From NCBI RefSeq assembly GCF_013378445.1, contig NZ_JABXYK010000026.1:1-50372 (forward strand): a stretch of DNA of 50,372 nucleotides, given 5' to 3'. The notes under the pieces are model-generated. The model was not told the origin of the DNA. It saw only the letters and a list, made by a program, of their open reading frames with translations, and did no database searches. The stretch's first letter is position 1. Every line of letters starts with the position of its first letter. Made by a program: the position numbers and the translations under genes. The DNA is from Mycoplana rhizolycopersici (GTDB taxonomy: Bacteria > Pseudomonadota > Alphaproteobacteria > Rhizobiales > Rhizobiaceae). This document shows positions 1-37,470 of the stretch, in pieces.

Positions 1-591
1 TGCGGGCTGGACGGTCCCTGCCCTCTCCTCGACGATGCCAACATAGGAGGCGGCGGAGCCCGTGCGGAGCAGGATTTCAGCGCGCTGAAGCGGCCGGAAG
101 CGCGCTTCGCCAATCGTGCGGCACACGTTGCAAGCCTGCGCCCAGGCGCCTTCCTGCGCGGTCGAGCTTGCCGTCCACAGCCAGCCGTCGAGTCGCAGAT
201 CCATGTCGATGGTGCCTGCAGCCTGCAAGCTGCTCAGTTCCTCGATGGCATCGGTCGTCGCGCGGCACAGCATGAGCGCGTCATCTTCACCCACAAGCAC
301 GCGCAGCATGTCGATTTCCGCAAACCAGCTGTGAACCTGGCCGCCATTGCGGCCCGAAGCACCCGATCCGCAGAAGTCCGCTTCGAGAACGGTCACGCGT
401 GTCTGCGGGGCTTGCTCCTTTATGCGGAGAGCCGTCCAGAGACCGGCATATCCGCCGCCGACGATCGCCACGTCACAGTCCTCGCTGCCCTGCAACGGAG
501 CGGTGACTGCGTCCGCATCGATGCTCTGCAGCCAGAAGGAGCGGTCCCCCTTTGCTGCAGCCACAGGCGGCCTCATCGTGATGGTGTTCAT
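1..591 (-). CDS. FAD-dependent amine/amino-acid oxidoreductase (DAO fold), 3' end beyond window
   Basis: N-terminal 197 residues of a flavoprotein of the glycine/D-amino-acid oxidase (DAO) family. After a ~40-residue lead comes the FAD-binding Rossmann motif VAIVGGGYAGLW, followed by an acidic residue in TVLEAD and then GSGASGRNGG, the usual second FAD contact in this family. The ATG lies 2 bp after the stop of the kinase gene upstream, so it is translationally linked as the last visible gene of the frl-type operon. The family oxidises secondary or primary amines to imines. In this context an N-substituted amino acid or Amadori-type compound is an inferred substrate. The reading frame stays open to base 1, so the C-terminus is outside the window. 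Confidence 0.85.
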   Translation of the reverse strand, partial: MNTITMRPPVAAAKGDRSFWLQSIDADAVTAPLQGSEDCDVAIVGGGYAGLWTALRIKEQAPQTRVTVLEADFCGSGASGRNGGQVHSWFAEIDMLRVLVGEDDALMLCRATTDAIEELSSLQAAGTIDMDLRLDGWLWTASSTAQEGAWAQACNVCRTIGEARFRPLQRAEILLRTGSAASYVGIVEERAGTVQPA

Positions 592-593
592 GC

Positions 594-1457
594 TCAGGCC
601 CTCTGTGTCGTGCGGATGACGCTGTCGTACTTGTCCAGCAACCATTGGGGAATTGCCTGGATCGGCTGGGGAAAGCCGCCGAGATGCGTGCAGGTTTCCG
701 CGGCATTGGCCGCGGAATGATCAAGGACAGCCTGCTCCGAATAGTGCTCGAAGAAGCGCGACACGAGGAAGGTCGCGATGAAGCTGTCCCCCGCCCCGCA
801 GGTATCGACCACCGTCACCGGCACCGAGCCTGCGAAAAACATTTCGCTGCCGTTGTCATAGAAGGAACCGCGTTTGCCGCACGTGACTACGACCTGCCGC
901 GCGCCCACCTTCTTGAACCGCTCAATCAGCGGCTCGACCGGTTTGGCCGGATCATCCGGGCCGGAGGCGAAAACCAATGGTACGTCTTCCAGCGAAAGGT
1001 CGAAATGCCGTGTCGAGACATCGATGCTGAACGGCACCCCATCCGCGACAAGGCGCCGGACGAGGCTTTCGCTGGAGTTCGTGCCAAGATGCACCCAATC
1101 GGCCTGCCGCAGCGCTTCGTATCGATCGAGGCTCGGAACATAGTTTCCGCCGACGCCAAGCGATTCGAGAAGAAAGCGCCGCTCCCCGGCATCATCGGTC
1201 AATAGCGTCACGGCGGAAGCGCCGGGGCGTATTTCGACATCGCTCCGCTCGAGGCCGGCCTTCTCGATGGCGGCGAGCATGATGTCTGCCTCCGCATCCG
1301 GACCCAGCGCACCGAAATAGCGGGCATTCAGGCCCTGCCGTCGCCACTGCACGGCGACATTGAGCGCATTGCCGCCCACGGTGACAAACCCCTTGCTGAG
1401 ATAGGCGTCGAGGCAATTGTCGCCGACGGCGATCAGGGTGGGACGGCTGTTGTTCAT
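594..1457 (-). CDS. frlD: PfkB-family sugar kinase, fructoselysine 6-kinase (FrlD) type
   Basis: A 287-residue ribokinase/PfkB-family kinase, about the length of E. coli FrlD. The N-terminus has the substrate-side glycine motif VGGNALNVAVQW, and the C-terminal part has VVDTCGAGDSF, which carries the catalytic Asp and the anion hole. FrlD phosphorylates the C6 hydroxyl of fructoselysine with ATP. The call rests on family plus neighbours: an FrlC-like epimerase overlaps its start by ATGA and an FrlB-like deglycase opens the operon. An upstream in-frame extension exists, but it lies over frlC, and the ATGA overlap fixes the start. Related kinases act on other sugar adducts, so the exact substrate is inferred. 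Confidence 0.85.
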   Translation of the reverse strand: MNNSRPTLIAVGDNCLDAYLSKGFVTVGGNALNVAVQWRRQGLNARYFGALGPDAEADIMLAAIEKAGLERSDVEIRPGASAVTLLTDDAGERRFLLESLGVGGNYVPSLDRYEALRQADWVHLGTNSSESLVRRLVADGVPFSIDVSTRHFDLSLEDVPLVFASGPDDPAKPVEPLIERFKKVGARQVVVTCGKRGSFYDNGSEMFFAGSVPVTVVDTCGAGDSFIATFLVSRFFEHYSEQAVLDHSAANAAETCTHLGGFPQPIQAIPQWLLDKYDSVIRTTQRA

Positions 1458-2299
1458 GTTTTCTCTGCTTGATCGAAATGGGGAGCGATCGCTTCCAGGC
1501 ACCGCCGCCAGACGGAAACGGGTTCGAGTGCATAGGAGCCGTTGCCGAAGGGCTCGAAGGTGAGCGTACCGGCAAAACCGTGCGCACCGAGCTCGGCGAG
1601 ATAGACGTGGAGCGGCAGGTTGCCGTCGCCCCAGGCAAGATGGCCTGCTGGCGTTCCATCTACGACATGGACGTGGGCAACGCGTTTTCCGAATTTTTCG
1701 AAGTACTCGCCGACGCTGTCGCCGGCGGTCGCCATGGCGACGATGTCGAGAACCACGTCGATATCGTCGCCGTCGAGCGCGCGCCAAAGGGCATGAAGCT
1801 CGTCGGCATTGGTAACGATGTTGCTTTCGAGACGCTGGAGCGGTTCAAGGAGGCAGGAGACCCCGACCGACCTTGCATGCGCCGCGATCCGGTTGATGGA
1901 GGCGACCGAATGCGCAAAGGCGGTTTCCCGGCTTTCGCATTCCAAACCACGGCCCGGCGTCAGGAAGAGATAGGCCGCCCCGAGTTCCGCGCAGATGTCG
2001 GCGGCCCGCATGAAGCGCTCGACGCTCGCTTTGCGATATGCGCTGTCGCCGGAGGCGATGTTGATCGGGTAGAGGACCTGCTCGGGCGTGAAGCAACGGA
2101 CCGTCAGGCCGTTGTCGCCGAGGATCGCCTTCACCTCCGCAAGTCGCGCACGGTTGTCGTGGAAGAGATCGAGATGCGGGGCGATGCCCCAAAACTCCAT
2201 CTGCTGGAAGCCGATGGCGCTGAGCTTTTCGGCAGCCCAGCGGAAGGGAAAGTGCTGAAAGGAGAAATTCGCACCGATGAGTTGTTCGCGTTTCAACAT
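1454..2299 (-). CDS. frlC: Sugar-adduct epimerase of the xylose-isomerase-like TIM-barrel family, FrlC type
   Basis: A 281-residue AP-endonuclease-2/xylose-isomerase-like TIM barrel. It matches remembered E. coli FrlC at several places in order: an early substrate-loop motif TPEQVLYPINIASGD, LEPLQRLESNIVTNA in the middle, then YFEKFGKRVAHVHVVD and the late metal-site stretch GDGNLPL. Glu and His residues in these motifs are the expected divalent-metal ligands. FrlC interconverts fructoselysine and psicoselysine, the C3 epimer. The start is 11 bp after the upstream permease stop, and its stop overlaps the frlD start (ATGA). An FrlC next to FrlB and FrlD argues for fructoselysine-like substrates rather than fructose-asparagine alone. 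Confidence 0.82.
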   Translation of the reverse strand: MLKREQLIGANFSFQHFPFRWAAEKLSAIGFQQMEFWGIAPHLDLFHDNRARLAEVKAILGDNGLTVRCFTPEQVLYPINIASGDSAYRKASVERFMRAADICAELGAAYLFLTPGRGLECESRETAFAHSVASINRIAAHARSVGVSCLLEPLQRLESNIVTNADELHALWRALDGDDIDVVLDIVAMATAGDSVGEYFEKFGKRVAHVHVVDGTPAGHLAWGDGNLPLHVYLAELGAHGFAGTLTFEPFGNGSYALEPVSVWRRCLEAIAPHFDQAEKT

Positions 2300-2310
2300 G
2301 GATTCCGCTC

Positions 2311-3171
2311 CTATTTCCCGATGCCTTCGGCAAGCCCGCGGATGAAGAAGCGCTGGGCCGCGAAGAAGGTCATGACGATGGGAAGTGCCGAGAGCGTCAT
2401 GGCGGCGAAGACGACGGCATAGTTCGTGCCGTGCTTTGCCATGATGGACGTCAGGCCGACGGGCAGTGTCTGCAGGTCCGCGCCGCTGGTGAAGATCATC
2501 GCGAACAGATATTCGTTCCACGCGAAGAGCACGTGCAGGATCACGCAGGACACCAGGATCGGTTTGCACAAGGGCAGCGTCACTTTCCAGAATATCTGGC
2601 CTTCGCTGGCGCCGTCCATGATGGCGGCCTCATCCAGGTCGCGCGGCAGGCCGAGCATGTAGGCGCGGATGAGGAAGGTCGTGAAGGGAATGCGGAAAGC
2701 GGTGTAGAGGATGATCAGCGCCCAATAGGTGTTGTAGAGGCCGAGATCCTGCATCATGCGCACCAGCGGGATGACCGCGACCGTCGGGCTGAGCATGAGG
2801 CCGCCGAGGACAATGCCGACGAAGAACGGCTTGCCTGGCAGTTTCGAGCGCGTCAGGCCGTAGGCGGTCCACGCACTGACCAGCACGGTGCAGACGGCCG
2901 ATCCCAATGTAACGATGACGCTCGTCGCAATGTAGTTCCGGATGCCCTGGTTCCAGGCCGACACGTAGTTGGCCAAGCTGAAACCGCTCGGCAGCGCAAA
3001 CGGATTGCCGAAGATTTCGGCATTGGTCTTGAAGCCGTTCAGTGCCATCCAGAACAGCGGATAGAGGACTACCACGCCGAGGCTGATCAGAAAGGTGACG
3101 AGGCAGGCCTTCGCCAGCACGGCGACGAAGTCGGTGCGCTCGGTTTCGCGCGGCTGATGGGAGACGCTCAC
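2311..3171 (-). CDS. ABC sugar permease, MalG/CUT1 type
   Basis: A 286-residue inner-membrane permease with about six hydrophobic segments and the EAA loop PRDLDEAAIMDGASEGQIF that contacts the ATPase. It is the MalG-like second permease of a carbohydrate importer, taking its substrate from the neighbouring binding protein. I start it at the GTG that overlaps the upstream permease stop (GTGA), because GGAGG lies 8 bp in front of it. An in-frame ATG 30 bp earlier would give a longer N-terminus with no better ribosome site. No ATPase gene is present in this operon within the window, so it must borrow one or have it further left. Confidence 0.9.
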   Translation of the reverse strand: MSVSHQPRETERTDFVAVLAKACLVTFLISLGVVVLYPLFWMALNGFKTNAEIFGNPFALPSGFSLANYVSAWNQGIRNYIATSVIVTLGSAVCTVLVSAWTAYGLTRSKLPGKPFFVGIVLGGLMLSPTVAVIPLVRMMQDLGLYNTYWALIILYTAFRIPFTTFLIRAYMLGLPRDLDEAAIMDGASEGQIFWKVTLPLCKPILVSCVILHVLFAWNEYLFAMIFTSGADLQTLPVGLTSIMAKHGTNYAVVFAAMTLSALPIVMTFFAAQRFFIRGLAEGIGK

Positions 3172-4136
3172 AGGTCCACCCTCCGTGTCTTCGTGTACCA
3201 TAGCTGCGCAAAACCCGTGATGAGCGTGATGACGAAGATGACCGATGCGATGGCTGCGCCATAGCCGAAATCATTTTCGATGAAGCCCTGCTGATAGAGC
3301 CATGTCCCCAGCACCTGGCTACTGTTGTTTGGCCCCCCGCCGGTCATGACCATGACCTCATTGAAGACCTGGAATGCGCCGGTGATGGTGACGATGACCA
3401 TCAGGCCCGTCATTTCGCGGGTCAGCGGAAAGGTGATGTTCCACAGGCGCCGCCAGGTCCCTGCCCCGTCCATGATCGCCGCGTCGTAGAGTTCGCGTGG
3501 GATCTTCTGGATCGCGATGGCAAACAGCAGCGTCGAATAGCCGAAACCCTGCCATTGGCTCATGGCGATGATGGCATATATCGCAGTCTGTTCCTCGCCG
3601 AGCCAGGCGCGCGACCAGTCCGCCAGGCCGATCTGCGTCAGCGCCGAATCCAGAAGGCCGATGTCGGGTTGATAGATGAAATAGAAGAGAAGGCCGGTGA
3701 CAGTGATGGAAATGGCCGAGGGCACGAAGTAAACGGCGCGCCAGAAACGGCGCCACCTCTCCTCGCTCAGCCCCTCGATGAGTGCAGCCAGCACGAAGGC
3801 GCCGAAAACCTGGAAAACGACGGAAATAACGGCATAGAGCGTGTTGTTGAGGATTGCCGTCCCAACCACCGGATCGCTTTGCAGGCGCCGGTAATTATCC
3901 AGTCCGACGTAGGCCGTTTCGCCCGTGAAGATGTCCTGGTTCTTCGTGCTGACGACGAAGTTGTCGATGATCGGATAGTAGACGAACCAGAGGATCAGCA
4001 CGAATGCGATCACGATCCAGCGGAACGAAAGAACCCCGGTTATCGGGCCGAGCCGGGCCCTTTCAGGCCGGCGCGACCCGGTGAAGCCGATTTTGACGGC
4101 TTCACCCTTGTAGTCATGCTTCACCGCAGTAATCAC
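3168..4136 (-). CDS. ABC sugar permease, MalF/CUT1 type
   Basis: A 322-residue permease of the MalF-like CUT1 group. A soluble N-terminal ~35 residues precede the first membrane span, and about six spans follow. The EAA loop reads PRELYDAAIMDGAGTWRRLW, and the family motif MTGGGPNNSSQVL lies before the last two spans. It pairs with the permease whose GTG start overlaps its stop. The gene begins 10 bp after the binding-protein stop, so binding protein, MalF-like and MalG-like subunits are one transcript. Substrate is inferred from the operon as an Amadori-type sugar adduct. Confidence 0.9.
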   Translation of the reverse strand: MITAVKHDYKGEAVKIGFTGSRRPERARLGPITGVLSFRWIVIAFVLILWFVYYPIIDNFVVSTKNQDIFTGETAYVGLDNYRRLQSDPVVGTAILNNTLYAVISVVFQVFGAFVLAALIEGLSEERWRRFWRAVYFVPSAISITVTGLLFYFIYQPDIGLLDSALTQIGLADWSRAWLGEEQTAIYAIIAMSQWQGFGYSTLLFAIAIQKIPRELYDAAIMDGAGTWRRLWNITFPLTREMTGLMVIVTITGAFQVFNEVMVMTGGGPNNSSQVLGTWLYQQGFIENDFGYGAAIASVIFVITLITGFAQLWYTKTRRVDL

Positions 4137-4146
4137 TGGCCGATCC

Positions 4147-5472
4147 TTATTTGGACGAAGCCGCCGCTTCCTTTACGCGCTCCACCACCTCTTCGGGCGT
4201 CATCGAGCCGCCGATCAGGGCCTGCAGTCCCGAAAGCCAGGCAGCCGCCACGCGCGGCGGGTTGGCCGTGTCGAGCCAGGGCATGAGATAGGAGGAGTCC
4301 GCGATCACCTTCAGACCATCGACGACGGCCGGGTTCATGGTTTCGGCCGAATAGCCGCCCACCGTCGCGCTCGGTTGGCCGTAAGGCGGCGCCGACAGGA
4401 TCTTGCCGTTTTCAGCCGAGGTGACGAACCGCATGAAATCGATCGCGAGCGGAATGTTTTTCGAGGCCGCGTTGATCATGTAGCCTTCCGGCGCGCCCTC
4501 GATAGCCTTGACGTCGCCCTTGGCATCTTTCGGAGCCGGCAGCTTGAAGAAACCGAAATCCTCGCGCTTCAGAGCGCCCTCGGCCGTCGCCTGATCGAAT
4601 TCGATGATCTCCTGATAGTACATCGCGGATTTGCCATTGCTGAACTGCTGCAAGGCCGATGCGTAGGAGGAGCCATTGGTGCCGGCGCCGTCGGAGCATT
4701 CGTCGATCAACTGCTTGAACTGCGTCAGGCTGACGGCATAACCGGGGTCGCTGTATTCGGCCGTGGCCGGGACGAAGTCCTTTTCAAGCGTCGCCTGCGG
4801 CACGTTGTAGGCAAGCAACTGTCCCGCATAGTGAACACCCGGCCAGCCTTCCTTGTTGCCGAACGAAATCGGCGTGACGCCCGATTTGCGCAGCGTCGCG
4901 CAGGCGCTCAGGAGCTCCTCGAAGCTCTTCGGTTCGGAAACGCCCGCCTTTTCGAACAGGCTCTTGTTGTAGCCCATGAACTTGGCGTCGAGATAAAGCG
5001 GAATACCAAAGAGCTTGCCATTGTACTGGAAGGCGGAAACGGCGGCATGTGCGAGCTCCTTGCCCCATTCGGTCTCCGGGCCGATGACCGGGGTGAGGTC
5101 GACGGCGCGATTGCCACGCACGAAATTCTCGCCCCAGCTGCCCGTCCATGTGAAGTAGATGTCGGGCAGCGAGTTGGATGCCACCAGGGCTTTCGTCTTG
5201 CCCTTCACGCTGTCGTCGCTCTCCTGGATGAGCTCGACCTTAACGTCTGGGTGAAGTTTCTCGTATGCCTTTGCCGCATCGACAAAGAAGGGGGAGAGTT
5301 GCTGCAGGCCGAATTTCGTCAGCACGCTGATCGTGCCCGAATGTTCGACTGCGGCACTGGGATCGGCCACGACCGGGTCCGCCGCAGCCACGCCGCTGGC
5401 GCCACCGATGACGAATGCGGCTGCAACGAGCGATCCGAGGCTCGTCGTGCTCAAAAACGCGTTTGCTTTCAT
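4147..5472 (-). CDS. Periplasmic carbohydrate-binding protein (family 1)
   Basis: A 441-residue extracellular solute-binding protein of the CUT1/family 1 group. A Sec signal peptide is visible: the first residues are MKANAFL, then a hydrophobic core rich in Ala and Val, with probable cleavage around GVAAADP. The mature part has family features such as KFGLQQLSPFF, TWTGSWGENF and a C-terminal WLSGLQALIGG. I chose this ATG over one 45 bp upstream because it starts the signal peptide and has AGAGG at good distance. It lies between frlB and the two permeases, and should deliver the operon's sugar adduct to them. Confidence 0.9.
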   Translation of the reverse strand: MKANAFLSTTSLGSLVAAAFVIGGASGVAAADPVVADPSAAVEHSGTISVLTKFGLQQLSPFFVDAAKAYEKLHPDVKVELIQESDDSVKGKTKALVASNSLPDIYFTWTGSWGENFVRGNRAVDLTPVIGPETEWGKELAHAAVSAFQYNGKLFGIPLYLDAKFMGYNKSLFEKAGVSEPKSFEELLSACATLRKSGVTPISFGNKEGWPGVHYAGQLLAYNVPQATLEKDFVPATAEYSDPGYAVSLTQFKQLIDECSDGAGTNGSSYASALQQFSNGKSAMYYQEIIEFDQATAEGALKREDFGFFKLPAPKDAKGDVKAIEGAPEGYMINAASKNIPLAIDFMRFVTSAENGKILSAPPYGQPSATVGGYSAETMNPAVVDGLKVIADSSYLMPWLDTANPPRVAAAWLSGLQALIGGSMTPEEVVERVKEAAASSK

Positions 5473-5558
5473 TTCGCAGTTCCTCTCTGTTGTCGTTCGT
5501 TTCTTAAGGCATGCCAAGGTGCAACCCTGCCCGGCGTGATCGACGGGCAGGGAAACGA

Positions 5559-6572
5559 TTAGTATTCGACGCGCTTGTAGTAGCGGCGCGTGGTCAGCGG
5601 ATGATCGCGCAGGACTTCCAGATGCGCGCTCAGGCGCTCCAGCATGGTTGCCAGGATGACCGGGGAAATCAGGCCGCGAGTTTTTGCGGAAAGGCCCGGA
5701 AGGCTGGCCGCAGCCGCATCGAGGATGCGCACCTTGTCGGTGTAGCGTTTGGCAAAGTTCTCCACCCGGTCGGTTAGCGGCCGGCAGGCGTCCTCGCCCT
5801 TGAAGATGAAGAGGCTGACGCCCGGTTCAACCAGTTCGAGCGTGCCGTGGAAGAAGTCGGAGGCCTGCACCGGACGGGTGCGGATCCACTGCATCTCCTC
5901 CAGAATGCACATGGCGTAGTAGTGAGCTTCCGGCCAGACCGATCCCGCACCGGTGAAGATGTGATAAGTCTCGTCTTTGATTTCCTTAGCGAGTGCGGCG
6001 GCCTCAACCTCGTAGCTTTCCTTTACCGAGACCAGCAGTTCCGGCAGCAGCTTGAGTTCGGCCACGGTCGCGTCGAAGTCAACATATTCGCCACGCTCTG
6101 CGAGGAGCGCGAGGACGATGATCAAGGTCTGCAGGTAGAAAGATTCGGAGGAGGTGTCGTCCTCGGCGAAGTTCGTGAAGTTGTAGTCGGCGTCGCGACC
6201 GAGAGGCGTGTCCTTGTGTCCGGTCAGAGACAGCGTCTTCACGCCGCGCTCCTTGAGGAAGGACAGAAGCTGGACGCTCTCCTTGGTCGTGCCCGACAAG
6301 GAGGGCAGGACGACCAGTGCCTTCTCGTTCAAGCCGGCGGGCGGCTCCAGAACGACCTGCGCCGAATAGGCTGCCGAAACCGGGAAGAGCGTCGAGTTCC
6401 GCGCAAGTTCGATTGCCGGCTGCGTGAGAAACTGCACGCCGCCGGTGCCCATGAAGAAAATGCGTTCCAGACCGTCATTGAGTAGTTCGCGCATCAGGTG
6501 ACGCACGTCCTGCGCGATTGCAACTGCGCCGCTTTGGATCTTAACAAAGCGATCTCTATCGAAGTTGAGCAT
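5559..6572 (-). CDS. frlB: Sugar-amino acid 6-phosphate deglycase, two SIS domains (FrlB/FraB type)
   Basis: A 337-residue SIS-domain enzyme, close to the ~340 residues of E. coli FrlB. FrlB/FraB enzymes split a 6-phosphorylated Amadori compound into glucose 6-phosphate and the free amine or amino acid. SIS domain 1 shows FMGTGGVQFL and PSLSGTTKESVQ, and SIS domain 2 shows FTGAGSVWPEAHYYA. Glu226 and His242 in LEEMQW and FFHGTLELVEP are 16 residues apart, the spacing known for the Glu/His catalytic pair of the related FraB deglycase. It is the first gene of the operon. AAGG precedes the ATG, and a perfect palindrome lies about 80 bp upstream. Glucoselysine-type substrates remain possible. Confidence 0.88.
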   Translation of the reverse strand: MLNFDRDRFVKIQSGAVAIAQDVRHLMRELLNDGLERIFFMGTGGVQFLTQPAIELARNSTLFPVSAAYSAQVVLEPPAGLNEKALVVLPSLSGTTKESVQLLSFLKERGVKTLSLTGHKDTPLGRDADYNFTNFAEDDTSSESFYLQTLIIVLALLAERGEYVDFDATVAELKLLPELLVSVKESYEVEAAALAKEIKDETYHIFTGAGSVWPEAHYYAMCILEEMQWIRTRPVQASDFFHGTLELVEPGVSLFIFKGEDACRPLTDRVENFAKRYTDKVRILDAAAASLPGLSAKTRGLISPVILATMLERLSAHLEVLRDHPLTTRRYYKRVEY

Positions 6573-6650
6573 TAGAACCTTCCCGTTTTGCGCCTCGCAA
6601 GATCGCCTTCGTAGCGAGATCGTGTCTTGCGCAAATGATCATTGAGACTG

Positions 6651-6668
6651 TGTGAGATCGATCTCACA
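6651..6668. promoter_or_regulatory. Probable LacI-family operator before frlB
   Basis: A perfect 18-bp palindrome, TGTGAGATCGATCTCACA, lies in the 169-bp gap between the LacI regulator gene and frlB, about 80 bp before the frlB start. Even-length palindromes with a central CG are typical LacI/GalR-family operators. Its core GAGATCGATCTC differs from the core at 12663-12674 only by one symmetric substitution in each arm. A smaller inverted repeat (CGCAAGA at 6596-6602 and TCTTGCG at 6625-6631) lies between it and frlB. Confidence 0.75.
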
Positions 6669-6741
6669 TATATTTAGCGCACAAGAATTTTGCGGTGGCA
6701 AGTGGGCAGTTCAAAAATTTTCCGATGGGGATGTGCGCCGC

Positions 6742-7797
6742 TCAGGCGTCTCTTCGGCGGCTGACGGAGCCGCGAACTATCATCTTGGTTTCAAAGCGAA
6801 ACTTCTGCGGCTGGCCGCCCTGTCCAGAGAGGCGATCGAACAGCAACCGAGCTGCCGCGCGACCGATTTCAGCCACTGGCTGCGCGACAACGGTGATCTG
6901 CGGATCGGTAAAGGTCGCCAGATTGAAGTCGTCGAAACCGATCAGTGAGACGTCATGGGGAATCGAAATGCCCATGGAACGGAAGGCCAAAAGCGCGCCC
7001 TGCGTCATCAAGCTGTCGACTGTGAAAAGCGCGGTCGGCGGGTTCTTCTGGCTGAAGAGGCGTATGGTCGCGTCGACGGCATGCTCAACCGTTGATTGCG
7101 AAACGGCAACCATCCGATCGTCCGGCGCAATACCGCCTGCGGCAAGTGCCGCCCGATAGCCGCTCATGCGCTCACGCGAGGTAAAGATGCGCATGTCGTC
7201 CTGCAACAGTCCTATTCGGCGATGGCCCATCCCGATCAGGTACTCGACGGCTTTGCGCGCGCCACCCTCGTTGTCCACGACGACGCTGTCGCAGTCGATG
7301 CCCTCCGCTACGCGGTCGATCAGGACCAGCGGTACGTTTTCGGCGATCAGACCCTTGAGATGGGCGTTGTTGTCGGCCGACGTCGGCGCCACGATGAAGC
7401 CGCGGATACTGAGCGACTGGAGGCTCGCCAGCAGAGAGATTTCCTGTCCAAGCTCCTCTTCGCTGCTGCCGATGACCAGATTGTGTCCGCACTCGCGGGC
7501 GAGAACCTCGATGTCGTGCGCGATGCGGGCGAAGAACGGGTTCTGTATATCGCCAAGGATGCAGCCGACGATCGGCAACTGCCCGCTCCGCAACGCCTGG
7601 GCCAGCCGGTTGCCGCGATAGCCGAGCTTTTCCGCAGCGGCCTGAACCTTCTGGGCGGTTTCGTCGCCAACATAGCCATAACTGTTCAGGGCGCGGGCAG
7701 CCGTTGCGCGCGACACATTCGCCAGCGCCGCCACATCCTTCAAAGTCGCCGGTTTCCGAACCATTTCACTCTTCGCCATCGCACAAGCGGGATCCAC
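6742..7797 (-). CDS. LacI-family transcriptional regulator, probable regulator of the frl operon
   Basis: A 351-residue LacI/GalR repressor. The N-terminal helix-turn-helix reads ATLKDVAALANVSRATAARA, the hinge helix lies in RLAQALRSG, and a periplasmic-binding-like sensor domain follows (GCILGDIQNPFF, VLIDRV, IGFDDFNLATF). The recognition helix carries TAAR in place of the usual TVSR, as does the other LacI protein of this window. I start at a GTG with AAGGAGG 6 bp upstream. In-frame ATGs at 7779 and 7764 also keep the whole DNA-binding domain. It lies between the flavin-oxidase gene and frlB on the same strand, so it may be read with the upstream importer operon. Confidence 0.88.
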   Translation of the reverse strand: MDPACAMAKSEMVRKPATLKDVAALANVSRATAARALNSYGYVGDETAQKVQAAAEKLGYRGNRLAQALRSGQLPIVGCILGDIQNPFFARIAHDIEVLARECGHNLVIGSSEEELGQEISLLASLQSLSIRGFIVAPTSADNNAHLKGLIAENVPLVLIDRVAEGIDCDSVVVDNEGGARKAVEYLIGMGHRRIGLLQDDMRIFTSRERMSGYRAALAAGGIAPDDRMVAVSQSTVEHAVDATIRLFSQKNPPTALFTVDSLMTQGALLAFRSMGISIPHDVSLIGFDDFNLATFTDPQITVVAQPVAEIGRAAARLLFDRLSGQGGQPQKFRFETKMIVRGSVSRRRDA

Positions 7798-7922
7798 CAC
7801 GATCCTCCTTGTAGCGTCGGGTCGACGGTTCGCATAGGCATGCCACCGAGGAAAGCGGCATGCCTCTGCAACCACGGGTCCAGGCCCCGCACGGGTGGGC
7901 CGGTCCGGAAGGACTGGTCGCC

Positions 7923-9053
7923 TTATCGCGATAGGAAGCGCTCGGGACGAAACGTTGCGAGCATAGGATGTTCCCCACCGGTCGCGATCTCGTGGGCCAA
8001 GAGCTCGCCCAGGATAAGACCGAGCGTCGCGCCGCTGTGGCTGAAGACGACATAGGCGCCGGGAACGGCCCTGAGGGCGCCGACCACCGGCTCGCCGTCA
8101 CCCGGGATCGGTTTGCCGCCAACGCCGATGGCGGCGATCTCGAACCTGGGATTGCCTTCCATCACCCTGGAGGCCTCCGCAAGCAGGGCGTCGACGACGG
8201 CGTCATCGATCTCATAGCCGCCGTCCTCGCGCACCCTCACACCTTCGTCTGCGGCCCAGTCGGCATCCAGCGAGAAGGCGCCGCCCGGCGCTGGACGAAC
8301 CGCCACGCGCGGCGTGTTGAGAACGGCGCGCAAGGGATGGGTGACCGGTTTGGTCTGCACCAAAAGCGCGATCGGCGTTCCATCACCGATTGTCTGTCCC
8401 GCGTCCGCCGCCATTTTCGGTACAGCCGGCCCGGTGGCAAGGACGACGGCATCGGCCAGGAAACGACCGCCCGTCGCCGTCTCGGCGCCGACGGCCCGGC
8501 CGCCTTCGACCATGATCCGCGCTTTGCCCCGATCGGTGACGAGCATACCCCCGAGTGCGGCAAATTCCTTGAGAAGCAGATCGATGAGGATCGGCAGATC
8601 GACCCACCCCTCGCCCGGGTTGAAGATCGCCCCCTGCGGCGTGATCGCACGCGCATCAAGGCCTGGCGTCACTGTTGCGACATCATCTGCCGCAAGATGC
8701 CGGGCGTCATAACCGAGCGAGACCTCGTGGCGGTATGCGGTATCAATCTCGTTGTCCTTGTCGTCGGCGTCCCAGGTCAGCCCCCCCTCGAAGCGAAGCC
8801 AGTCCGCATCGGGAAAGCGGGTGGAAAGCGTGCGGTAACGGTCGATCCCGGCCATGCGCAGGCGATGATAAGGCTCGGAGCGCATGCGCGCCGAATTCAG
8901 CCAGGAGAGTGAGCGGCCGGACGCGCCATTGGCGGGCGGGCCGTCGTTGAGAATGGTCACGGCAATACCGCGCCGGGCAAGCTGCACGCCCGTGGAAACG
9001 CCGAAAATGCCGGCGCCGATGATGACCGCCGAAGTGATGCTTTTGTCTGTCAT
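7923..9053 (-). CDS. FAD-dependent oxidoreductase of the DAO family
   Basis: A 376-residue flavoprotein. The N-terminal FAD motif is AVIIGAGIFGVSTGVQLARR, then NGASGRSLSWLN. A substrate-side core and a C-terminal FAD contact follow in VVFSHSGATLGLILGELLA. The length fits DadA/glycine-oxidase-like proteins. Start chosen at the ATG just before SITSAVIIGAG; an ATG 66 bp upstream overlaps the preceding gene and has no convincing ribosome site. It follows the Gfo/Idh gene and a polar amino-acid type importer. In agrobacteria, FAD enzymes of this fold (SocD-like amadoriases) act on fructosyl amino acids. That role here is an inference from context, and other N-alkyl amino acids are possible. Confidence 0.82.
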   Translation of the reverse strand: MTDKSITSAVIIGAGIFGVSTGVQLARRGIAVTILNDGPPANGASGRSLSWLNSARMRSEPYHRLRMAGIDRYRTLSTRFPDADWLRFEGGLTWDADDKDNEIDTAYRHEVSLGYDARHLAADDVATVTPGLDARAITPQGAIFNPGEGWVDLPILIDLLLKEFAALGGMLVTDRGKARIMVEGGRAVGAETATGGRFLADAVVLATGPAVPKMAADAGQTIGDGTPIALLVQTKPVTHPLRAVLNTPRVAVRPAPGGAFSLDADWAADEGVRVREDGGYEIDDAVVDALLAEASRVMEGNPRFEIAAIGVGGKPIPGDGEPVVGALRAVPGAYVVFSHSGATLGLILGELLAHEIATGGEHPMLATFRPERFLSR

Positions 9054-9103
9054 GGTCGCTTGTCTTTCAATCCGTGGGACAGTCGGGATGGTAAAGGAAG
9101 GGG

Positions 9104-10111
9104 TCAGGGCGCTTCCCATCGGCCGCTCTTCGCGGAGCGAATCAGGGCGTCGATTGCCTTCATGTTGGCAACCGCATCATCGATACCGGAGATGAGCGGC
9201 TCGCCGGAAAGCACCGCGGCCGCGAAGGCATCGGCCTGCTCGCGGTACTGGTCGACCGGTTCGATCGCGATCTCCTCGCGCCCCCCGCCGGCAAGATCGC
9301 GTCCGTCATCTACGACGAGCACGGTCGGCTTGTCAGCCGGCGCATTGAAGGGAACCGGGATTTCCAGGCGCCCGCGCGTGCCAAGCACAGTGACCTTCTG
9401 CGTGAGGGAAAGTTGCGTCGAACAGGTGAAGGCAAGCTGTCGGCCCTCCGGAAACTCCAGGAGGCCACTGGTCAGGCGGTCCGTACCGAAGGCCGGGTCG
9501 CGTTCCATAAGCGCGATCGCCCGCTTCGGCTCGGAACCGAAGAGGAAGCGCGCCGTGTTGATGGCGTAGCATCCGACGTCGTAAAGGCCTCCGCCGCCGA
9601 TACTGGCCTGGTTGCGCACGTTCCGGGGATCGTCGAGATAGTAGGAAAAGATCGTCTGGATGGCCCGGGCCTCGCCGATCCGCCCTTCGGCAACAAGCAC
9701 CCGCGCCCTTTTCCACTGCGGATGATGGCGTACCATGAAGGCCTCGGCGACAGGCAGGCCCGCCGCTTTTTGCGCGGCCGCCAACTTCGTCGCCTCGTCG
9801 GCGTTAAGCGCGATCGGCTTTTCGCAAAGGACCGGCTTGCCTTGTTCCAGCGCCCTGATCGTCATCGGCACGTGTAGGTGGTTGGGCAGCGGGTTGTAGA
9901 TCGCATCGATTTCCGGGTCGGCCAGCAGCGCCTCGTAGCTGCCATATGCTTTGGCGATGCCGAAGCGCGCCGCCATCTCCCCCGCCCTGCCCGGATCACG
10001 CGAGGCTATCGCCTCGACCCGTCCCAGGCGGCTGGATTGAATGGCGGGAATGACGGCCTTGGCGGCGATGCCCGCGCAGCCAAGCACGCCCCATCGAACC
10101 ATTTCTTTCAT
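9104..10111 (-). CDS. Gfo/Idh/MocA-family NAD(P)-dependent oxidoreductase
   Basis: A 335-residue dehydrogenase. The N-terminal Rossmann domain starts WGVLGCAGIAAKAVIPA. The family catalytic motif is CEKPIAL, and the C-terminal domain holds GGGGLYDVGCYAINTARF with the conserved Asp-x-x-x-Tyr region. Family members oxidise or reduce sugars, inositols and sugar adducts. It is named after glucose-fructose oxidoreductase and includes rhizopine MocA. AAGGAGA lies 6 bp before the ATG. Its stop is 51 bp before the flavin oxidase start and its start lies 22 bp after the importer gene. Likely substrate: the sugar part of the imported compound (inferred). Confidence 0.87.
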   Translation of the reverse strand: MKEMVRWGVLGCAGIAAKAVIPAIQSSRLGRVEAIASRDPGRAGEMAARFGIAKAYGSYEALLADPEIDAIYNPLPNHLHVPMTIRALEQGKPVLCEKPIALNADEATKLAAAQKAAGLPVAEAFMVRHHPQWKRARVLVAEGRIGEARAIQTIFSYYLDDPRNVRNQASIGGGGLYDVGCYAINTARFLFGSEPKRAIALMERDPAFGTDRLTSGLLEFPEGRQLAFTCSTQLSLTQKVTVLGTRGRLEIPVPFNAPADKPTVLVVDDGRDLAGGGREEIAIEPVDQYREQADAFAAAVLSGEPLISGIDDAVANMKAIDALIRSAKSGRWEAP

Positions 10112-10132
10112 TGTCTTCTCCTTGCGCCGGGA

Positions 10133-11641
10133 TCAGAGCACTTCGGCCAGGAAGCGCTGCAGGCGCGAGCTTTGCGGATTGTCGAAGATCGCCTCCGGCG
10201 CGCCCGCCTCCACGACGCGACCTTCGTCCATGAACACGACCTGATCGGCGACGCGCCGGGCAAAGCCCATCTCATGGGTGACGACAACCATGGTCATGCC
10301 GCGTTTGCCGAGATCGGCCATGAGATTGAGGACGCCCTTGACGAGTTCGGGATCGAGCGCGCTCGTCACCTCGTCGAAGAGGATGACCTCCGGCTCCATG
10401 GCAAGGGCGCGGGCGATGGCGACGCGCTGCTGCTGGCCGCCGGACAGCCCGCCAGGACGGTGATGCGCACGGCTGGCGAGACCGACATCGGCAAGCCTCG
10501 CCTTGGCGATATGCTCTGCCTTGTCCTTTGGCAAGCCCTTGATCTCGGTCAGCGACAGCATGACGTTCTCAAGCGCCGTGTGATCGGGGAAGAGATTGAA
10601 GTGCTGGAATACCATGCCCACCCGGCGGCGCAGGCGCTCTGGCTTCATGGCAAGGATGCTGTCGCCGTCGAGCAGAACGTCCCCACTCTTCGGCTCGACC
10701 AGCCGGTTGATGCAGCGAAGCAGTGTGGACTTGCCGGAGCCGGATGGACCGATGACGCAGGTGACACTGCCGGGCCTGACCGAAAGGTCGACCCCCTTCA
10801 GCACGTCGAGTTCGCCATAGGCCATGCCGAGATTGCGGATGTCCAGGCTGCCACCCTTGAATTCGGCCTCTGTGGCACGGCTCGCTCCGTCGAGTTCGCT
10901 GACCTCCTCCAGCCCGCTGGAGATAGTGGCCGGGCGCTGCTTGCCGATCCTCAGCCGGTTGTCGATGGCATTCACGACATGGGTCAGCGGTACGGTGACG
11001 ACGAGATAGAAGACTCCGGCAAGGAGCAGCGGCGAGAGATTGCCGGTCACCACCGCCTGATCCTGACCGACGCGAAAGATCTCGCGCTCGGAAGCCAGCA
11101 ACCCCAAGAAATAGACAAGGCTCGAATCCTTCACATTGCCGATGAACTGGTTGACCAGCGCCGGCAGGACGCGGCGCACGCCCTGGGGAACGACGATCAG
11201 CCGCATGCCCTGGCCGTAGCTCATCGATAGCGCCCGGCAGGCTTCCATCTGACCGCGATCGACGCTCTGGATGCCCGAACGAAAGATCTCCCCGATATAG
11301 GCGCCGGCAATGAGGCTGAGCGCCAGAATGCCGAGCGGATAGGGCGAAGGGCCGAACAGTTCGCGGCCGATGCGCGCAAAGCCCTGGCCGATCAGCAGGA
11401 TGGTGACGATGGCAGGCAGGCCGCGAAAGATGTCCGTGTAGATGCGCGCCGGAATGCGCAGCCAGGGCGAACGGGAAATGCCCATGATGGCAAGCACCAT
11501 GCCGATGACGACGCCGAGCACTGTCGAAGCCGCCGCAAGGATCAGCGTATTCTTGAGACCGACCGTGATCATGGTCGGCAGGACTTCGGCCATCGCATTC
11601 CAGTCGAGGAAGCTGCGGCGCAGGTTTTCAAGCCAGTTCAT
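10133..11641 (-). CDS. One-chain amino-acid ABC permease-ATPase fusion
   Basis: A 502-residue fusion. Residues ~1-235 are a HisM/GlnP-type permease with about five spans and the EAA loop MEACRALSMSYGQGMRLIVV. After a ~25-residue linker, residues ~260-502 are a HisP/GlnQ-type ATPase: Walker [10 protein letters not shown], signature LSGGQQQRVAIARA, Walker B VILFDEVTSALD. The normal layout uses separate genes. The fused form is known in rhizobia and fixes permease:ATPase stoichiometry in a homodimer. The reading frame runs through the junction, and the linker (rich in Glu, Ser and Ala) shows no sign of a sequencing join. The binding protein is encoded just upstream. Confidence 0.92.
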   Translation of the reverse strand: MNWLENLRRSFLDWNAMAEVLPTMITVGLKNTLILAAASTVLGVVIGMVLAIMGISRSPWLRIPARIYTDIFRGLPAIVTILLIGQGFARIGRELFGPSPYPLGILALSLIAGAYIGEIFRSGIQSVDRGQMEACRALSMSYGQGMRLIVVPQGVRRVLPALVNQFIGNVKDSSLVYFLGLLASEREIFRVGQDQAVVTGNLSPLLLAGVFYLVVTVPLTHVVNAIDNRLRIGKQRPATISSGLEEVSELDGASRATEAEFKGGSLDIRNLGMAYGELDVLKGVDLSVRPGSVTCVIGPSGSGKSTLLRCINRLVEPKSGDVLLDGDSILAMKPERLRRRVGMVFQHFNLFPDHTALENVMLSLTEIKGLPKDKAEHIAKARLADVGLASRAHHRPGGLSGGQQQRVAIARALAMEPEVILFDEVTSALDPELVKGVLNLMADLGKRGMTMVVVTHEMGFARRVADQVVFMDEGRVVEAGAPEAIFDNPQSSRLQRFLAEVL

Positions 11642-11698
11642 TAAGCGGCCCTTCAGGGAGAGGCTGGTCCGGCCGCCCGGCCGGACCAGGAGATGGAG

Positions 11699-12535
11699 TC
11701 AGGACTTGGGGAGATATTCGGCCGGCATCGGCGTGCCGGGGAACCACTTTTCGTGGATCTTCTTCCAGGTGCCATCCTGCATGGCGTCATGGAGCGCCTT
11801 GTTCAGCGCCTCGCGCAGCGGGTCATTGCCCTTGCGCACGACGAAGCCGGCCGGCGCGTCGAAGCTTGGGATGTTGACCGCGATCTTCAGATCTGGGTAG
11901 CGGCCCGAGTAGTCCTTAGCCGCCTCGAAATCAAGGAAATGCGCATCCACAGTGCCGTTGTTGAGGGCGGCCACGGCGGAGTTGTTGTCAGGGAACTTGA
12001 CCAGATCAGCGCCCGTGAAGTTCTTCTGGGCGTAGATTTCCTGGAGCGTGCCCTGCACGACGCCGAGGCGCTTGCCCTGAAGGCTCGCCGCATCCCTGAT
12101 GGCAGCATTCGGCGTCATGATCGAAAGATAGCCCGCCAGATAACCCTCGGAGAAATCGACTGTCTCCTTGCGCTTGTCGGTCGTGCCGATCGCGGCCGCC
12201 GCGACGTCGAAGCGGCCGTTGGCGACTGACGGCATGAGAGCGGCAAATTCCTGGCCGGTAAAGATCACCTGGTCCTTCTTGAAGCCTATGCGCTCGGCAA
12301 CGTTCAGAAAGAGTTCAATGTCGAAGCCCGTGAAATTACCGTCTGACGTGGTGAAGGCATAGGGCTTGGCATCACCCATCGTGCCAACGCTGATGACGGT
12401 TGGATCGATCAGGCCGAGGGGATTGTCCTCGGCGAGCACCGGCGTTGCGACGCTTGCCATGACTCCGAGGGCTACTGCGGCTGCAGTGGCGCGCATTCGG
12501 GCAAGCGGGAAAGTGATGGCGTCTGATAGTCTCAT
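11699..12535 (-). CDS. Periplasmic polar amino-acid/opine-type binding protein (family 3)
   Basis: A 278-residue family 3 solute-binding protein. Residues 1 to about 37 form a signal peptide with a hydrophobic Ala/Val core, cleaved near VLAED. The mature protein has [20 protein letters not shown] and the family signature [28 protein letters not shown] sits about 9 bp before the ATG. It is the first gene of the operon with the fused importer, the Gfo/Idh enzyme and the flavin oxidase, and its promoter carries two LacI-type palindromes. Family 3 proteins bind polar amino acids and opines, so a sugar-amino acid conjugate is a plausible ligand (inference). Confidence 0.9.
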
Positions 12536-12660
12536 CGGCTTGGTCTCCTCTGGTGGTGTTATCTGCGATGTTTTCTGCGCGCATGGGTCCCACCCGGACG
12601 AGGGAACGACCCGCTCGTCCGGCCCACGCCATCGCATGCCGGGATCTTACTGTTCTCACA

Positions 12661-12676
12661 TTGAGACCGGTCTCAA
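12661..12676. promoter_or_regulatory. LacI-type operator 1 of the divergent importer/regulator promoter
   Basis: The perfect 16-bp palindrome TTGAGACCGGTCTCAA lies between the divergently read binding-protein gene (start 12535) and LacI gene (start 12764). Its centre is 22 bp, about two helical turns, from the centre of the second palindrome. Both share the 12-bp core GAGACCGGTCTC. Confidence 0.8.
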
Positions 12677-12681
12677 ATTAA

Positions 12682-12699
12682 AAAGAGACCGGTCTCTTT
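12682..12699. promoter_or_regulatory. LacI-type operator 2 of the divergent importer/regulator promoter
   Basis: The perfect 18-bp palindrome AAAGAGACCGGTCTCTTT lies on the same face of the helix as operator 1 and 65 bp before the regulator start. It probably serves autoregulation as well as control of the importer operon. Its position rules out the longer start of the regulator at 12698, which would put the coding sequence over the operator. Confidence 0.8.
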
Positions 12700-12763
12700 G
12701 ACCTTTCGCAATTGTTATCTTCGCATTTGCCAGTCGTCAATATCTCTTGTAAGGCTAGCCTCC

Positions 12764-13834
12764 ATGGACCAAAACCCACCCCGTTCCCCCTCCGTCACGG
12801 TAGCCGACGTCGCCTGCAAGGCGGGCGTCTCGAAAGCCACCGCCGCGCGCGTGCTTGGGGGCTATGGAACCGTGAGCGACCATGTGCGTGATGCGGTGAC
12901 CGCCGCCGCCCGCGCCCTCGACTACCAGCCGAACGAACTGGCCCGCAGTATGACGACGGGGCGGTCCGGCACGATCGGGGTGGTGGTGGGCGATATCGAG
13001 AATCCGTTCTTCAGCCTGGCGATGCGAGGTATCACCGATGTCGCCCGGCAGACCGGCTTCACCGTCATCCTGATCAATTCCGGCGAAGACGCCGCCACGG
13101 AAAAGTCCGCAATTCGTACGCTGCTTGCAAAGCGGGTGGACGGCCTCATCGTCTCGCCGGCCAAGGAGAGCGATGCCGACCATTTGCGGGAGGCTGCCCG
13201 CTCCGGCCGGCCCCTCGTGCTGCTCGACCGCGGCAGCGAGACACTCGACATCGACACCGTGATCGCCGACGACCGGCATGCCGCCGAAGGTATCACGCGG
13301 CGGCTCATTGCGCTCGGCCACCGGCGCATCGCTTACATCACCGCCTGCGACACCCCCGAACACCGGTTCCGCACCCCGGCCGATATCAATACCGGCTCGG
13401 TGCGCCGGCGCATCGAGGGCTTTCTCGACGTCTGCCTGGAAGCAGGCCTGGAGGACATGGAAGACTGGGTGCATGTGGGCGCCGTGACGCCGGAACACAC
13501 CCACCGTATCGCCACTGTCATGCTCAAATCCTCGCGGCGTCCGACAGCTGTAATCGCATCTGACAGCGTGATCGGCCTTGAAGTGTTCAAGGTCTGTCGC
13601 GAGCTTGGCCTCACCATTCCAAACGACCTGTCGCTGGTGTCGTTTCACGATGCGGACTGGACGTCCGTCACAACACCGCCCGTCACGGTCGTGCGCCAGC
13701 CCGTCTACGGCCTTGGCGAAGCGGCGGCAAAGCTACTGGTCGAGCGGCTTAACGGAAACACCGCGAAGGCGACGCGCGTCGTCCTGAAGACGGAAGTCGT
13801 CGAGCGCGCCTCCGTGGCCGCCGCGCCCACATAG
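12764..13834 (+). CDS. LacI-family transcriptional regulator, divergent to the importer operon
   Basis: A 356-residue LacI/GalR protein. The helix-turn-helix region reads VTVADVACKAGVSKATAARV near residue 12, the hinge is in ELARSMTTG, and the effector domain has GVVVGDIENPFFSLA, VLLDRG and SLVSFHDADWTSV. The TAAR recognition helix is like that of the LacI protein at 6742-7797, in line with the similar operators. TAAGG precedes the chosen ATG. A longer in-frame start at 12698 would overlap the second palindrome. It is placed to control the adjacent binding-protein/importer/Gfo/flavin-oxidase operon; the inducer is unknown. Confidence 0.9.
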   Translation: MDQNPPRSPSVTVADVACKAGVSKATAARVLGGYGTVSDHVRDAVTAAARALDYQPNELARSMTTGRSGTIGVVVGDIENPFFSLAMRGITDVARQTGFTVILINSGEDAATEKSAIRTLLAKRVDGLIVSPAKESDADHLREAARSGRPLVLLDRGSETLDIDTVIADDRHAAEGITRRLIALGHRRIAYITACDTPEHRFRTPADINTGSVRRRIEGFLDVCLEAGLEDMEDWVHVGAVTPEHTHRIATVMLKSSRRPTAVIASDSVIGLEVFKVCRELGLTIPNDLSLVSFHDADWTSVTTPPVTVVRQPVYGLGEAAAKLLVERLNGNTAKATRVVLKTEVVERASVAAAPT

Positions 13835-30876: not shown

Positions 30877-30918
30877 CGAGCTGTCCTTCCTGTCATTGTT
30901 TCGAGGCTTTCCGACATT

Positions 30919-33539: not shown

Positions 33540-33561
33540 GTCGTTGCCTTGTCCGTCTCTT

Positions 33562-34668: not shown

Positions 34669-35444
34669 GATCTTACGTCCCTGAATTTGTATGAAAGGAG
34701 GACGCCGAGCGCCGACAGAAGAATGAGAATGGCTGCAACGGCGGCCGTTGCCGGATCGAGATTGGTGCGGACCTGGTTCCAGATCATGATCGGAACGGTC
34801 CGGGTCTGTACATCGGCAAGGAAAAGCGCAATGACGACTTCGTCCCACGACGTGATGAAGGCGAACACTGCGCCGGAAAGCACGCCCGGCATGATGAGCG
34901 GCAGCGTGACGCGCTTGAAGGTGAACCAGCGGCTCGCACCAAGGCCAAGGCTGGCGGGCACCAGCGAGGGGTTCACCATGCCCGCGCTTGCAAGCACGGA
35001 TACAACCACGAACGGGATCGCCAGCACCGTGTGCGCCAGAACGAGCCCAAGCCGCGTGGCGACGAGACCCCATCCCGAAAACACCATATACATGCCGACC
35101 GCAAGCACGATGACCGGCGTGACCATCGGGCTGAGCAGCAGTCCCATGACGACGGTCTTGCCCCGAAAGCGATGCGCGTGCAGCGCAAGGGCAGCCGCCG
35201 TGCCGACGACGGTCGCAAGCGCTGCCGCCGCAATCGCGACGACAAGGCTGTTGATCAGTGCGCTTTGCCAATCGGCCGCGCCGATGACCTTGCCATACCA
35301 GTCCAGCGTGAACCCGACAGGGGGGAATTCCAGCGTGGTCGTCGTCGTGAACGACATCGGTACGATGATCAGCGTCGGCAGAAGCAGGAACAAGGCCGTC
35401 AGGCCAACGATGAGCCAGAAGAGCGCGCGTCTCAGACGGTCCAT
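34665..35444 (-). CDS. ABC permease, PotC type
   Basis: A ~259-residue permease with about six spans. The EAA loop reads PASLGLGASRWFTFKRVTLP, then GAVFAFITSWDEVVIALFLA, typical of PotC-like proteins. I start at MDRLRRALFW, 1 bp after the PotB-type stop. An in-frame ATG at 35456 adds four residues and overlaps that stop; either is possible. It pairs with the PotB-type permease to form the membrane channel. Confidence 0.9.
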   Translation of the reverse strand: MDRLRRALFWLIVGLTALFLLLPTLIIVPMSFTTTTTLEFPPVGFTLDWYGKVIGAADWQSALINSLVVAIAAAALATVVGTAAALALHAHRFRGKTVVMGLLLSPMVTPVIVLAVGMYMVFSGWGLVATRLGLVLAHTVLAIPFVVVSVLASAGMVNPSLVPASLGLGASRWFTFKRVTLPLIMPGVLSGAVFAFITSWDEVVIALFLADVQTRTVPIMIWNQVRTNLDPATAAVAAILILLSALGVLLSYKFRDVRS

Positions 35445-35445
35445 G

Positions 35446-36336: not shown

Positions 36337-36368
36337 CTTAAACCTGAAACACGAGGTTGCGCCTGGAC

Positions 36369-36388
36369 CCGCCCGCTTTCGCGGGCGG
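36369..36388 (-). terminator. GC-rich hairpin after the binding-protein gene
   Basis: CCGCCCGC (36369-36376) and GCGGGCGG (36381-36388) form an 8-bp perfect stem with a 4-nt loop in the 69-bp gap between the binding-protein stop and the PotB-type start. There is no T-run. It is more likely a 3' stabiliser giving more binding-protein mRNA than a terminator. Confidence 0.6.
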
Positions 36389-36405
36389 ATCACTTGCCAT
36401 ATCCG

Positions 36406-37416: not shown

Positions 37417-37470
37417 GTTCAGTTCCCCATCCTTTGCTTGGAATTCTTCGATTGTGAATGCGCTTGAATT

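Follow-up and report, generated by a model that had tools for sequence, protein, structure and literature searches.

The window analysed here is a stretch of 50,372 nucleotides from Mycoplana rhizolycopersici, and makes up the entire contig C26; the genome comprises 5.6 Mb in 78 contigs. Its bases 1-13834 hold two catabolic units, a soc operon (7923-13834) and, directly downstream of it, an operon of the fructoselysine (frl) type (1-7779). Together they probably form an Amadori-compound catabolic island that consists of two separately regulated operons. Transcription runs on the minus strand in the order socA-socB-socC-socD, lacI1, frlB-SBP-permease-permease-frlC-frlD-DAO1, followed by the contig end, and socR diverges from socA (SBP denotes a solute-binding protein, and DAO1 an oxidase dependent on flavin adenine dinucleotide, FAD). 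Among the open reading frames (ORFs) of the window, every gene named in this order is found on the minus strand as an open frame with zero internal stops.

An earlier note on the same DNA had described a locus at 1-12763 with homologues of FrlB, FrlC and FrlD, a CUT1 importer, a family 3 binding protein, a fused importer, a Gfo/Idh enzyme and two DAO-type oxidases. The gene list stands, since all of these are present as ORFs. The extent does not: the end is set at 13834, because the divergent socR gene and its operators belong to the unit. There are also two LacI regulators, and the note did not recognise the right half as soc. Amadori compounds occur in decaying plants and in the rhizosphere, and feed particular bacteria (excerpts of PMC8262997 and PMC12632257).

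The soc operon

To judge from its sequence, the right half is the known agrobacterial soc operon, the Gfo/Idh enzyme being SocC and one of the oxidases SocD. The socR gene diverges from socA-socB-socC-socD, which stand in this order, and all five proteins are orthologous to those of strain C58, with identities of 82% (SocA), 93% (SocB), 83% (SocC), 80% (SocD) and 80% (SocR) over nearly the full length. The soc operon of pAtC58 also shares gene order, orientation and a double operator motif in the socA-socR gap with the window, but it adjoins repABC, whereas the soc operon of the window lies directly upstream of the frl-type operon. In the plasmid At record of C58, the region next to repABC encodes an FAD oxidoreductase, a Gfo/Idh/MocA protein, a fused permease/ATPase, a binding protein and a divergent LacI protein. 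The record gives no soc names, and the soc assignment of these genes therefore rests on place and order. The text excerpted from PMC4231840 places socR and socABCD of pAtC58 adjacent to repABC, and assigns them to the catabolism of deoxyfructosyl-glutamine (santhopine).

SocA (11699-12535, minus strand) is a family 3 binding protein. Its nearest solved chains are 6hqh, 5l9o and 5lom, the last two of which are named deoxyfructosyl-amino acid transporter periplasmic binding protein. SocB (10133-11641, minus strand) is a fused polar amino acid permease/ATPase, SocC (9104-10111, minus strand) a Gfo/Idh/MocA oxidoreductase, SocD (7923-9053, minus strand) a predicted FAD fructosyl-amino-acid oxidase, and SocR (12764-13834, plus strand) a LacI-family regulator. 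The annotations at the soc genes of Agrobacterium tumefaciens F2 read fructosyl amino acid oxidase (SocD), deoxyfructose oxidoreductase (SocC) and deoxyfructosyl-amino acid transporter. With the Gfo/Idh enzyme as SocC and the oxidase as SocD, the combination of oxidase, Gfo/Idh enzyme and polar importer is not new. A reading of it as novel has to be dropped, because the combination is already present as the soc operon on pAtC58.

The Gfo/Idh gene is not constant in soc operons. SocC is missing from seven frl-adjacent examples (loci L078, L081, L082, L084, L086, L108 and L110), in which SocD starts less than 150 bases from SocB. In two further loci (L004 and L087), SocD occurs by itself directly upstream of the LacI gene of the frl operon, with no socABC in the stretch examined, as if it were the remnant of a lost soc operon or had been recruited separately. 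Genes of the soc operon have also been described in tobacco-root Arthrobacter (PMC8262997); the word deglycase occurs zero times in the main text of that report.

The frl-type operon

The curated families (NCBIfam) that best match the enzymes of the left half are fructoselysine-6-phosphate deglycase for FrlB, fructoselysine 3-epimerase for FrlC and fructoselysine 6-kinase for FrlD. Together with the deoxyfructosyl-amino acid transporters nearest to SocA, these matches bear out the earlier proposal that a kinase/deglycase operon of the frl type is joined to an Amadori-type importer and a fructosyl-amino-acid oxidase. In the enzyme searches that the note had called for, nearest relatives acting on plain amino sugars were not seen, although the scores lie far below the equivalog cut-offs.

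FrlB (5559-6572, minus strand) is a predicted SIS-domain deglycase by family match and by alignment to Escherichia coli FrlB. The Glu226/His242 pair pointed out earlier is indeed present, 16 residues apart and aligned with E. coli FrlB. It recurs in 109 of 112 FrlB homologues, a set that includes duplicates, and the remaining three are of other length and not comparable. The two residues correspond to the catalytic pair of FraB. Of the solved SIS proteins, 2a3n (214 bits), which is presumably Salmonella GfrF, and 8glr (211 bits) score above 3eua (144 bits), which carries the name putative fructose-amino acid-6-phosphate deglycase.

Downstream of frlB follow a family 1 (CUT1) solute-binding protein (4147-5472, minus strand; PF01547, with sugar-binding homologues) and two CUT1-type ATP-binding cassette (ABC) permeases, recognised as ORFs and by synteny. 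Orthologues of the first (3168-4136, minus strand) are annotated as sugar ABC transporter permease, those of the second (2311-3201, minus strand) as carbohydrate ABC transporter permease. The FrlC-like 3-epimerase, a xylose-isomerase TIM barrel (1454-2299, minus strand), and the FrlD-like PfkB kinase (594-1457, minus strand) precede DAO1.

For comparison, relatives of the operon were fetched by similarity to FrlB. Among the best 80 of 308, 66 loci are of the CUT1 type, of which 63 have at least 6.5 kb and 62 have 8 kb of downstream sequence. FrlD is present in 63/63, so that kinase and deglycase share the operon with the importer. FrlC is optional (43/63), and in 19 of the 20 loci that lack it FrlD lies within 170 bases of the second permease. 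An operon ATPase is found in 50/62.

Two described systems are similar. The frlBONMD-frlP operon of Bacillus subtilis, judged from its name and description (excerpt of PMC12632257), likewise has a deglycase, a binding protein, two permeases, a kinase and an ATPase; the ATPase, in its position, is seen in the relatives of the window and not in the window. The operon described here differs by FrlC (43/63), the FAD oxidase (63/63), a LacI gene and the motif TGAGATCGATCTCA upstream, although the lack of FrlC and of an FAD oxidase in B. subtilis is judged from the operon name. The E. coli frlABCD-frlR genes include homologues of FrlB, FrlC and FrlD at 27-32% identity, but have a single transporter gene, frlA, and frlR as the regulator, and none of the annotated frl genes encodes an FAD oxidase. 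An frlB-containing cluster is up-regulated on virulence induction in strain 1D1609, according to an excerpt of PMC6629968.

A more distant operon of the frl type with an FAD oxidase is found on plasmid pB of Cereibacter sphaeroides 2.4.1 (L178), where the deglycase is just 43% identical. Its neighbours are an asparaginase, an amino acid importer, an argininosuccinate lyase and a second SIS protein (52% to FrlB), a set reminiscent of that for fructose-asparagine.

The FAD oxidase of the frl-type operon

DAO1 (1-591, minus strand) is an FAD-dependent amine oxidase-like protein (PF01266) and the last gene of the frl-type operon that is visible. As the window is the whole contig, the gene is cut by the contig end, and only the first 197 residues are present. 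DAO1 is more constant than FrlC, being found in all 63 CUT1-type loci with sufficient flank. In a sample of 297 genomes of the family, with the genome of the window as G000, homologues of at least 63% identity occur in exactly nine, the same nine that have a FrlB of at least 76% identity (CUT1-type). The other five DAO1 matches in this sample at E 1e-90 or better have identities of 39-43%. No DAO1 of at least 45% identity was seen in the flanks of the 14 loci not classed as CUT1-type, some of which have short downstream flanks (L117 0.8 kb, L128 1.1 kb, L123 6.9 kb, L140 6.8 kb); L117 probably belongs to the CUT1 type and is truncated by the end of its contig.

The earlier note had put both oxidases on one oxidising route, side by side with the phosphorylating one. 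SocD and FrlD/FrlB are indeed adjacent, but the two FAD enzymes do not make up one route. Sequence, fold and profile searches rule out that DAO1 and SocD are the same kind of FAD enzyme: the F2 DAO1 has no match to C58 SocD at E 1e-3, and amadoriases are missing both from the 50 best fold matches of DAO1 and from its 29 profile matches. A profile of 42 DAO1 proteins and an AlphaFold model match glycine, sarcosine and L-amino acid oxidoreductases; the model, of the R. subbaraonis homologue (pLDDT 90.8), has glycine and sarcosine oxidases as its nearest folds. The alignments comprised 42 of 64 sequences (A1) or all 15 and the window (A2). The best curated match of the full-length F2 DAO1 is TIGR03329, putative aminophosphonate oxidoreductase, at 423.5 bits and thus under the cut-off of 632.8. 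The match extends over the full length, but phosphonate genes are absent from the annotated operon genes in F2, Shinella and R. daejeonense. By these comparisons, DAO1 would be a sarcosine/glycine-oxidase-like member of the frl operon, from a different family than SocD.

DAO1 may then be an amine oxidase step of the frl pathway, for which the sequence does not distinguish a place before FrlB from one after it. It is quite possible, if somewhat short of probable, that DAO1 acts last, and oxidises the amine released by FrlB (an omega-amino acid or other plain amine) to a semialdehyde. Four plasmid loci with DAO1 relatives outside frl operons are suggestive in this respect. Three of these relatives, at 43-44% identity, adjoin hydantoinase/oxoprolinase genes, in two cases together with a succinate-semialdehyde dehydrogenase that is not found in the stretch of the third, and the fourth (39%) lies beside other FAD oxidases and an aldehyde dehydrogenase. 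However, the frl operon is without an aldehyde dehydrogenase. The opposite order, in which an N-substituted amine imported by the CUT1 transporter is oxidised by DAO1 to the fructosamine and then processed by FrlD and FrlB, seems doubtful. It would agree with a constant DAO1 and an optional FrlC, with glycine and sarcosine oxidases as the nearest solved folds, and with the oxidation of a secondary amine, N-methyl-aminoethylphosphonate, by other PF01266-class FAD enzymes in phosphonate clusters (excerpt of PMC10590968). The sequence itself gives no evidence of such a substrate. Moreover, polyol-amines of the mannopine type are usually handled by an NAD enzyme.

The truncation of DAO1 fits an unresolved assembly repeat. 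A second copy of window bases 1-941 (the 3' end of frlD and the start of DAO1), 97.45% identical, ends contig C4 (L162:18160-19097), and both contigs stop at DAO1 residue 197. Beside this copy, pieces of the window from 43.2-46.6 kb with ABC transporter genes recur at 84-90% identity. The whole is a segmental duplication, and the assembly breaks there as well. A mobile element interrupting DAO1 exactly at base 1 is ruled out, as homology to the relatives reaches the last base.

Recurrence of the frl-soc pairing

The arrangement is not confined to the window. A. tumefaciens F2 has the whole 13.9 kb in synteny at 82.9% DNA identity, which excludes chance as the source of the arrangement; it is the only one of 422 matching plasmid records with at least 80% of the 13.9 kb covered at one place. 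For a wider comparison, loci were counted as paired if they contained at least two of SocA, SocB and SocD at 50% identity or more, so that L004 and L087, with SocD alone, are unpaired. By this measure, 19 of 62 comparable frl loci, the window included, are paired with soc genes within about 10 kb. The 62 loci, which also form the rows of the FrlB tree, are the window, L003-L006 and those members of L062-L126 whose FrlB reaches 60% identity and which either extend 7 kb or more upstream or contain soc. Not included are L001 and L002, L008-L061 (short loci) and L127-L141.

The soc genes stand upstream and in line in the window, L003, L072, L074 and L097, and also, at a distance of about 5.5 kb, in L069 and L070. 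In L078, L081, L082, L084, L108 and L110, from Phyllobacterium, Mesorhizobium and another member of the Rhizobiales, they lie upstream without SocC. Other arrangements comprise an upstream inverted set without SocC (L086), a downstream one (L101), one with an inverted LacI1 (L119) and one upstream with genes between (L117). In two Arthrobacter loci (L125 and L126), soc precedes frlB by 0.7-0.9 kb; here SocB is matched over only half of its length, followed by a separate gene of the ATPase type.

The trees bear on whether the pairing arose only once. On the FrlB tree, the pairing needs 14 changes, at least 10 of them forced by the starred branches (shuffled mean 16.6), and on the SocA tree nine changes, of which four are forced (shuffled mean about 14). 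L061 (51%) was not used in the SocA tree, and L069 and L070 are without a row there, their loci stopping short of SocA; the genome of L069 is represented as L038. The counts thus require repeated gain or loss, which they cannot tell apart.

In the 297-genome family sample, a CUT1-type FrlB and SocA (at least 60% identity) occur together in G000, G073, G270 and G271, three of which have them linked. Six genomes combine SocA with the other FrlB type, and the two are on different contigs every time (3/4 vs 0/6, Fisher p = 0.033). Under uniform placement, three of four within 12 kb corresponds to a p of about 3e-7, a value that ignores shared ancestry and the choice of G000 for this finding. The proximity of an oxidative route (SocD) and a phosphorylate-and-split route (FrlD/FrlB) is more than chance.

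Neither the frl-soc pairing nor the FAD oxidase of the frl operon was found described in the open-access literature, covered by the listed titles and starts of abstracts, with subscription papers, including the primary soc papers, outside the scope; no open-access paper was found that treats santhopine and fructoselysine together.

In F2, a third module follows beyond socR (L003:22818-31868), and a similar one stands beside the frl unit in L004 and L005. It comprises an NADH:flavin oxidoreductase, a second FrlC-like protein, a GlpD-like FAD enzyme, a second SIS protein, a GntR regulator, an ornithine-cyclodeaminase-like protein (reductase) and a polar amino acid importer, and looks Amadori- or opine-like. 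No kinase is annotated in it. For its SIS enzyme, the genome of the window offers no orthologue, the best match being FrlB itself (31%).

Regulators and operators

Each unit has a LacI-family gene of its own. LacI1 (6742-7779, minus strand; PF00356 and PF13377), the presumed regulator of the frl-type operon, travels with frlB and is 34% identical to C58 SocR. The two regulators share the helix letters S-R/K-A-T-A-A-R, a stretch that we take to be the LacI recognition helix. An operator-like palindrome with the motif GAGA-N4-TCTC, TGTGAGATCGATCTCACA, lies upstream of frlB (6651-6668, no strand assigned), and two further ones, GAGACCGGTCTC, lie between socA and socR (12662-12697, no strand assigned), where C58 has the same pair.

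The motif is conserved at both places. It is present in 72 of 73 distinct frlB upstream regions (67 occurrences read TGAGATCGATCTCA; none in L116) and in 35 of 40 distinct socA upstream regions, nearly always as GAGACCGGTCTC (none in L049, L056, L059, L125 and L126), with homologues below 66% (FrlB) or 55% (SocA) identity left out of the counts. Each half of the frlB operator departs from that of the socA operator at a single base pair, T versus C. In L115 and L118, from marine Rhodobacterales, the frlB sites are wholly or partly in the soc form. Each regulator would pair with the operator of its own unit. The simplest reading is that the two units are under separate but related control, and cross-talk between the two predicted operators is possible.

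Proposed pathways

The protein families suggest the following roles. In the soc operon, under the control of SocR, SocAB would import deoxyfructosyl-glutamine and similar alpha-fructosyl amino acids, which SocD with FAD would oxidise to the free amino acid and an osone, and SocC would probably act on the sugar product. In the frl-type operon, under the control of LacI1, the CUT1 importer would take up another or an overlapping set of fructosamines. FrlD would phosphorylate C6, FrlB would cleave the 6-phosphate to yield glucose 6-phosphate and the amine, a 3-epimer would be converted by FrlC in loci that have it, and DAO1 would oxidise an amine belonging to the frl pathway. Any substrate of DAO1, like a simultaneous use of both routes, we purely infer. 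Joint use of the two units on shared substrates is plausible.

Several observations weigh against an Amadori island of this kind. Different regulators and operators speak against one co-induced pathway. The frl enzymes miss their equivalog cut-offs (FrlB 97/430, FrlC 118/305, FrlD 120/247 bits) and are distant from those of E. coli (27, 28 and 32% identity, respectively), which leaves the exact frl substrate open. The solved protein that comes closest to SocD, 7fgp, is named glycine/D-amino acid oxidase (188 bits in the profile search), and fructosyl amine and peptide oxidases score just 32-38 bits against the SocD profile. In the assembly of the window, the remainder of DAO1 is not found elsewhere, and no orthologue of the operon ATPase is seen (best match 63%), so that the tail may have been lost in this strain. 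In L123, whose FrlB is 73% identical, the permeases are different ones and no DAO1 is seen over 6.9 kb.

The pairing is likewise open to objections. The frl relatives are a non-random sample, and 43 of the 62 loci are not counted as paired with soc. One of the three linked genomes in the family sample is that of the window itself, chosen for the finding, and without it the ratio is 2/3. G209, in which FrlB and SocA are about 50 kb apart on one contig, was excluded for a SocA match of 51%, and with it the ratio is 3/5. Finally, 20 of 25 SocA genomes in the sample have no CUT1-type FrlB. Separate regulators and operators, together with the many genomes that have one unit alone, lead us to regard the locus as two units, perhaps with overlapping substrates, that are separately controlled.

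It is quite unlikely that the units are neighbours simply because accessory catabolic genes ordinarily cluster on plasmids, with no common substrate class and the frl unit serving some other sugar-amine: each unit mostly occurs alone, with a regulator gene and an operator motif to itself, and the frl enzymes are distant from characterised ones, but the pairing is repeated in varied arrangements, another phylum included, linkage in the family sample differs between the FrlB types, and the related operon of C. sphaeroides 2.4.1 has an asparaginase, a second SIS enzyme and an importer for amino acids next to it, together another set that looks to be of the fructose-amino-acid kind. Within the reading as two separately regulated Amadori operons, we tentatively propose a more specific version: a kinase, a deglycase and an obligatory sarcosine-oxidase-like DAO1 would act on one class of sugar-amines, and this unit would repeatedly have been joined to soc, to give one locus with both routes and two LacI regulators whose operators are one base pair per half-site apart.

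In this locus, a known part (soc) can be told apart from one that is little described, namely an frl operon whose CUT1-type relatives, as far as checked, all have an FAD oxidase. It offers a testable prediction, namely which fructosamines require this oxidase, and the two near-identical operator motifs provide a ready regulatory comparison. Surveys that count soc alone or frlB alone can overlook half of the capacity.

Other features of the window

Bases 29449-40155, judged by eye from the translations, hold another catabolic cluster of the amine or opine type, with an aldehyde dehydrogenase, genes for a polyamine-type ABC importer and a regulator. It includes three further FAD oxidoreductases (30919-32076, 32073-33617 and 38800-40155), the last of which matches DAO1 at 28%.

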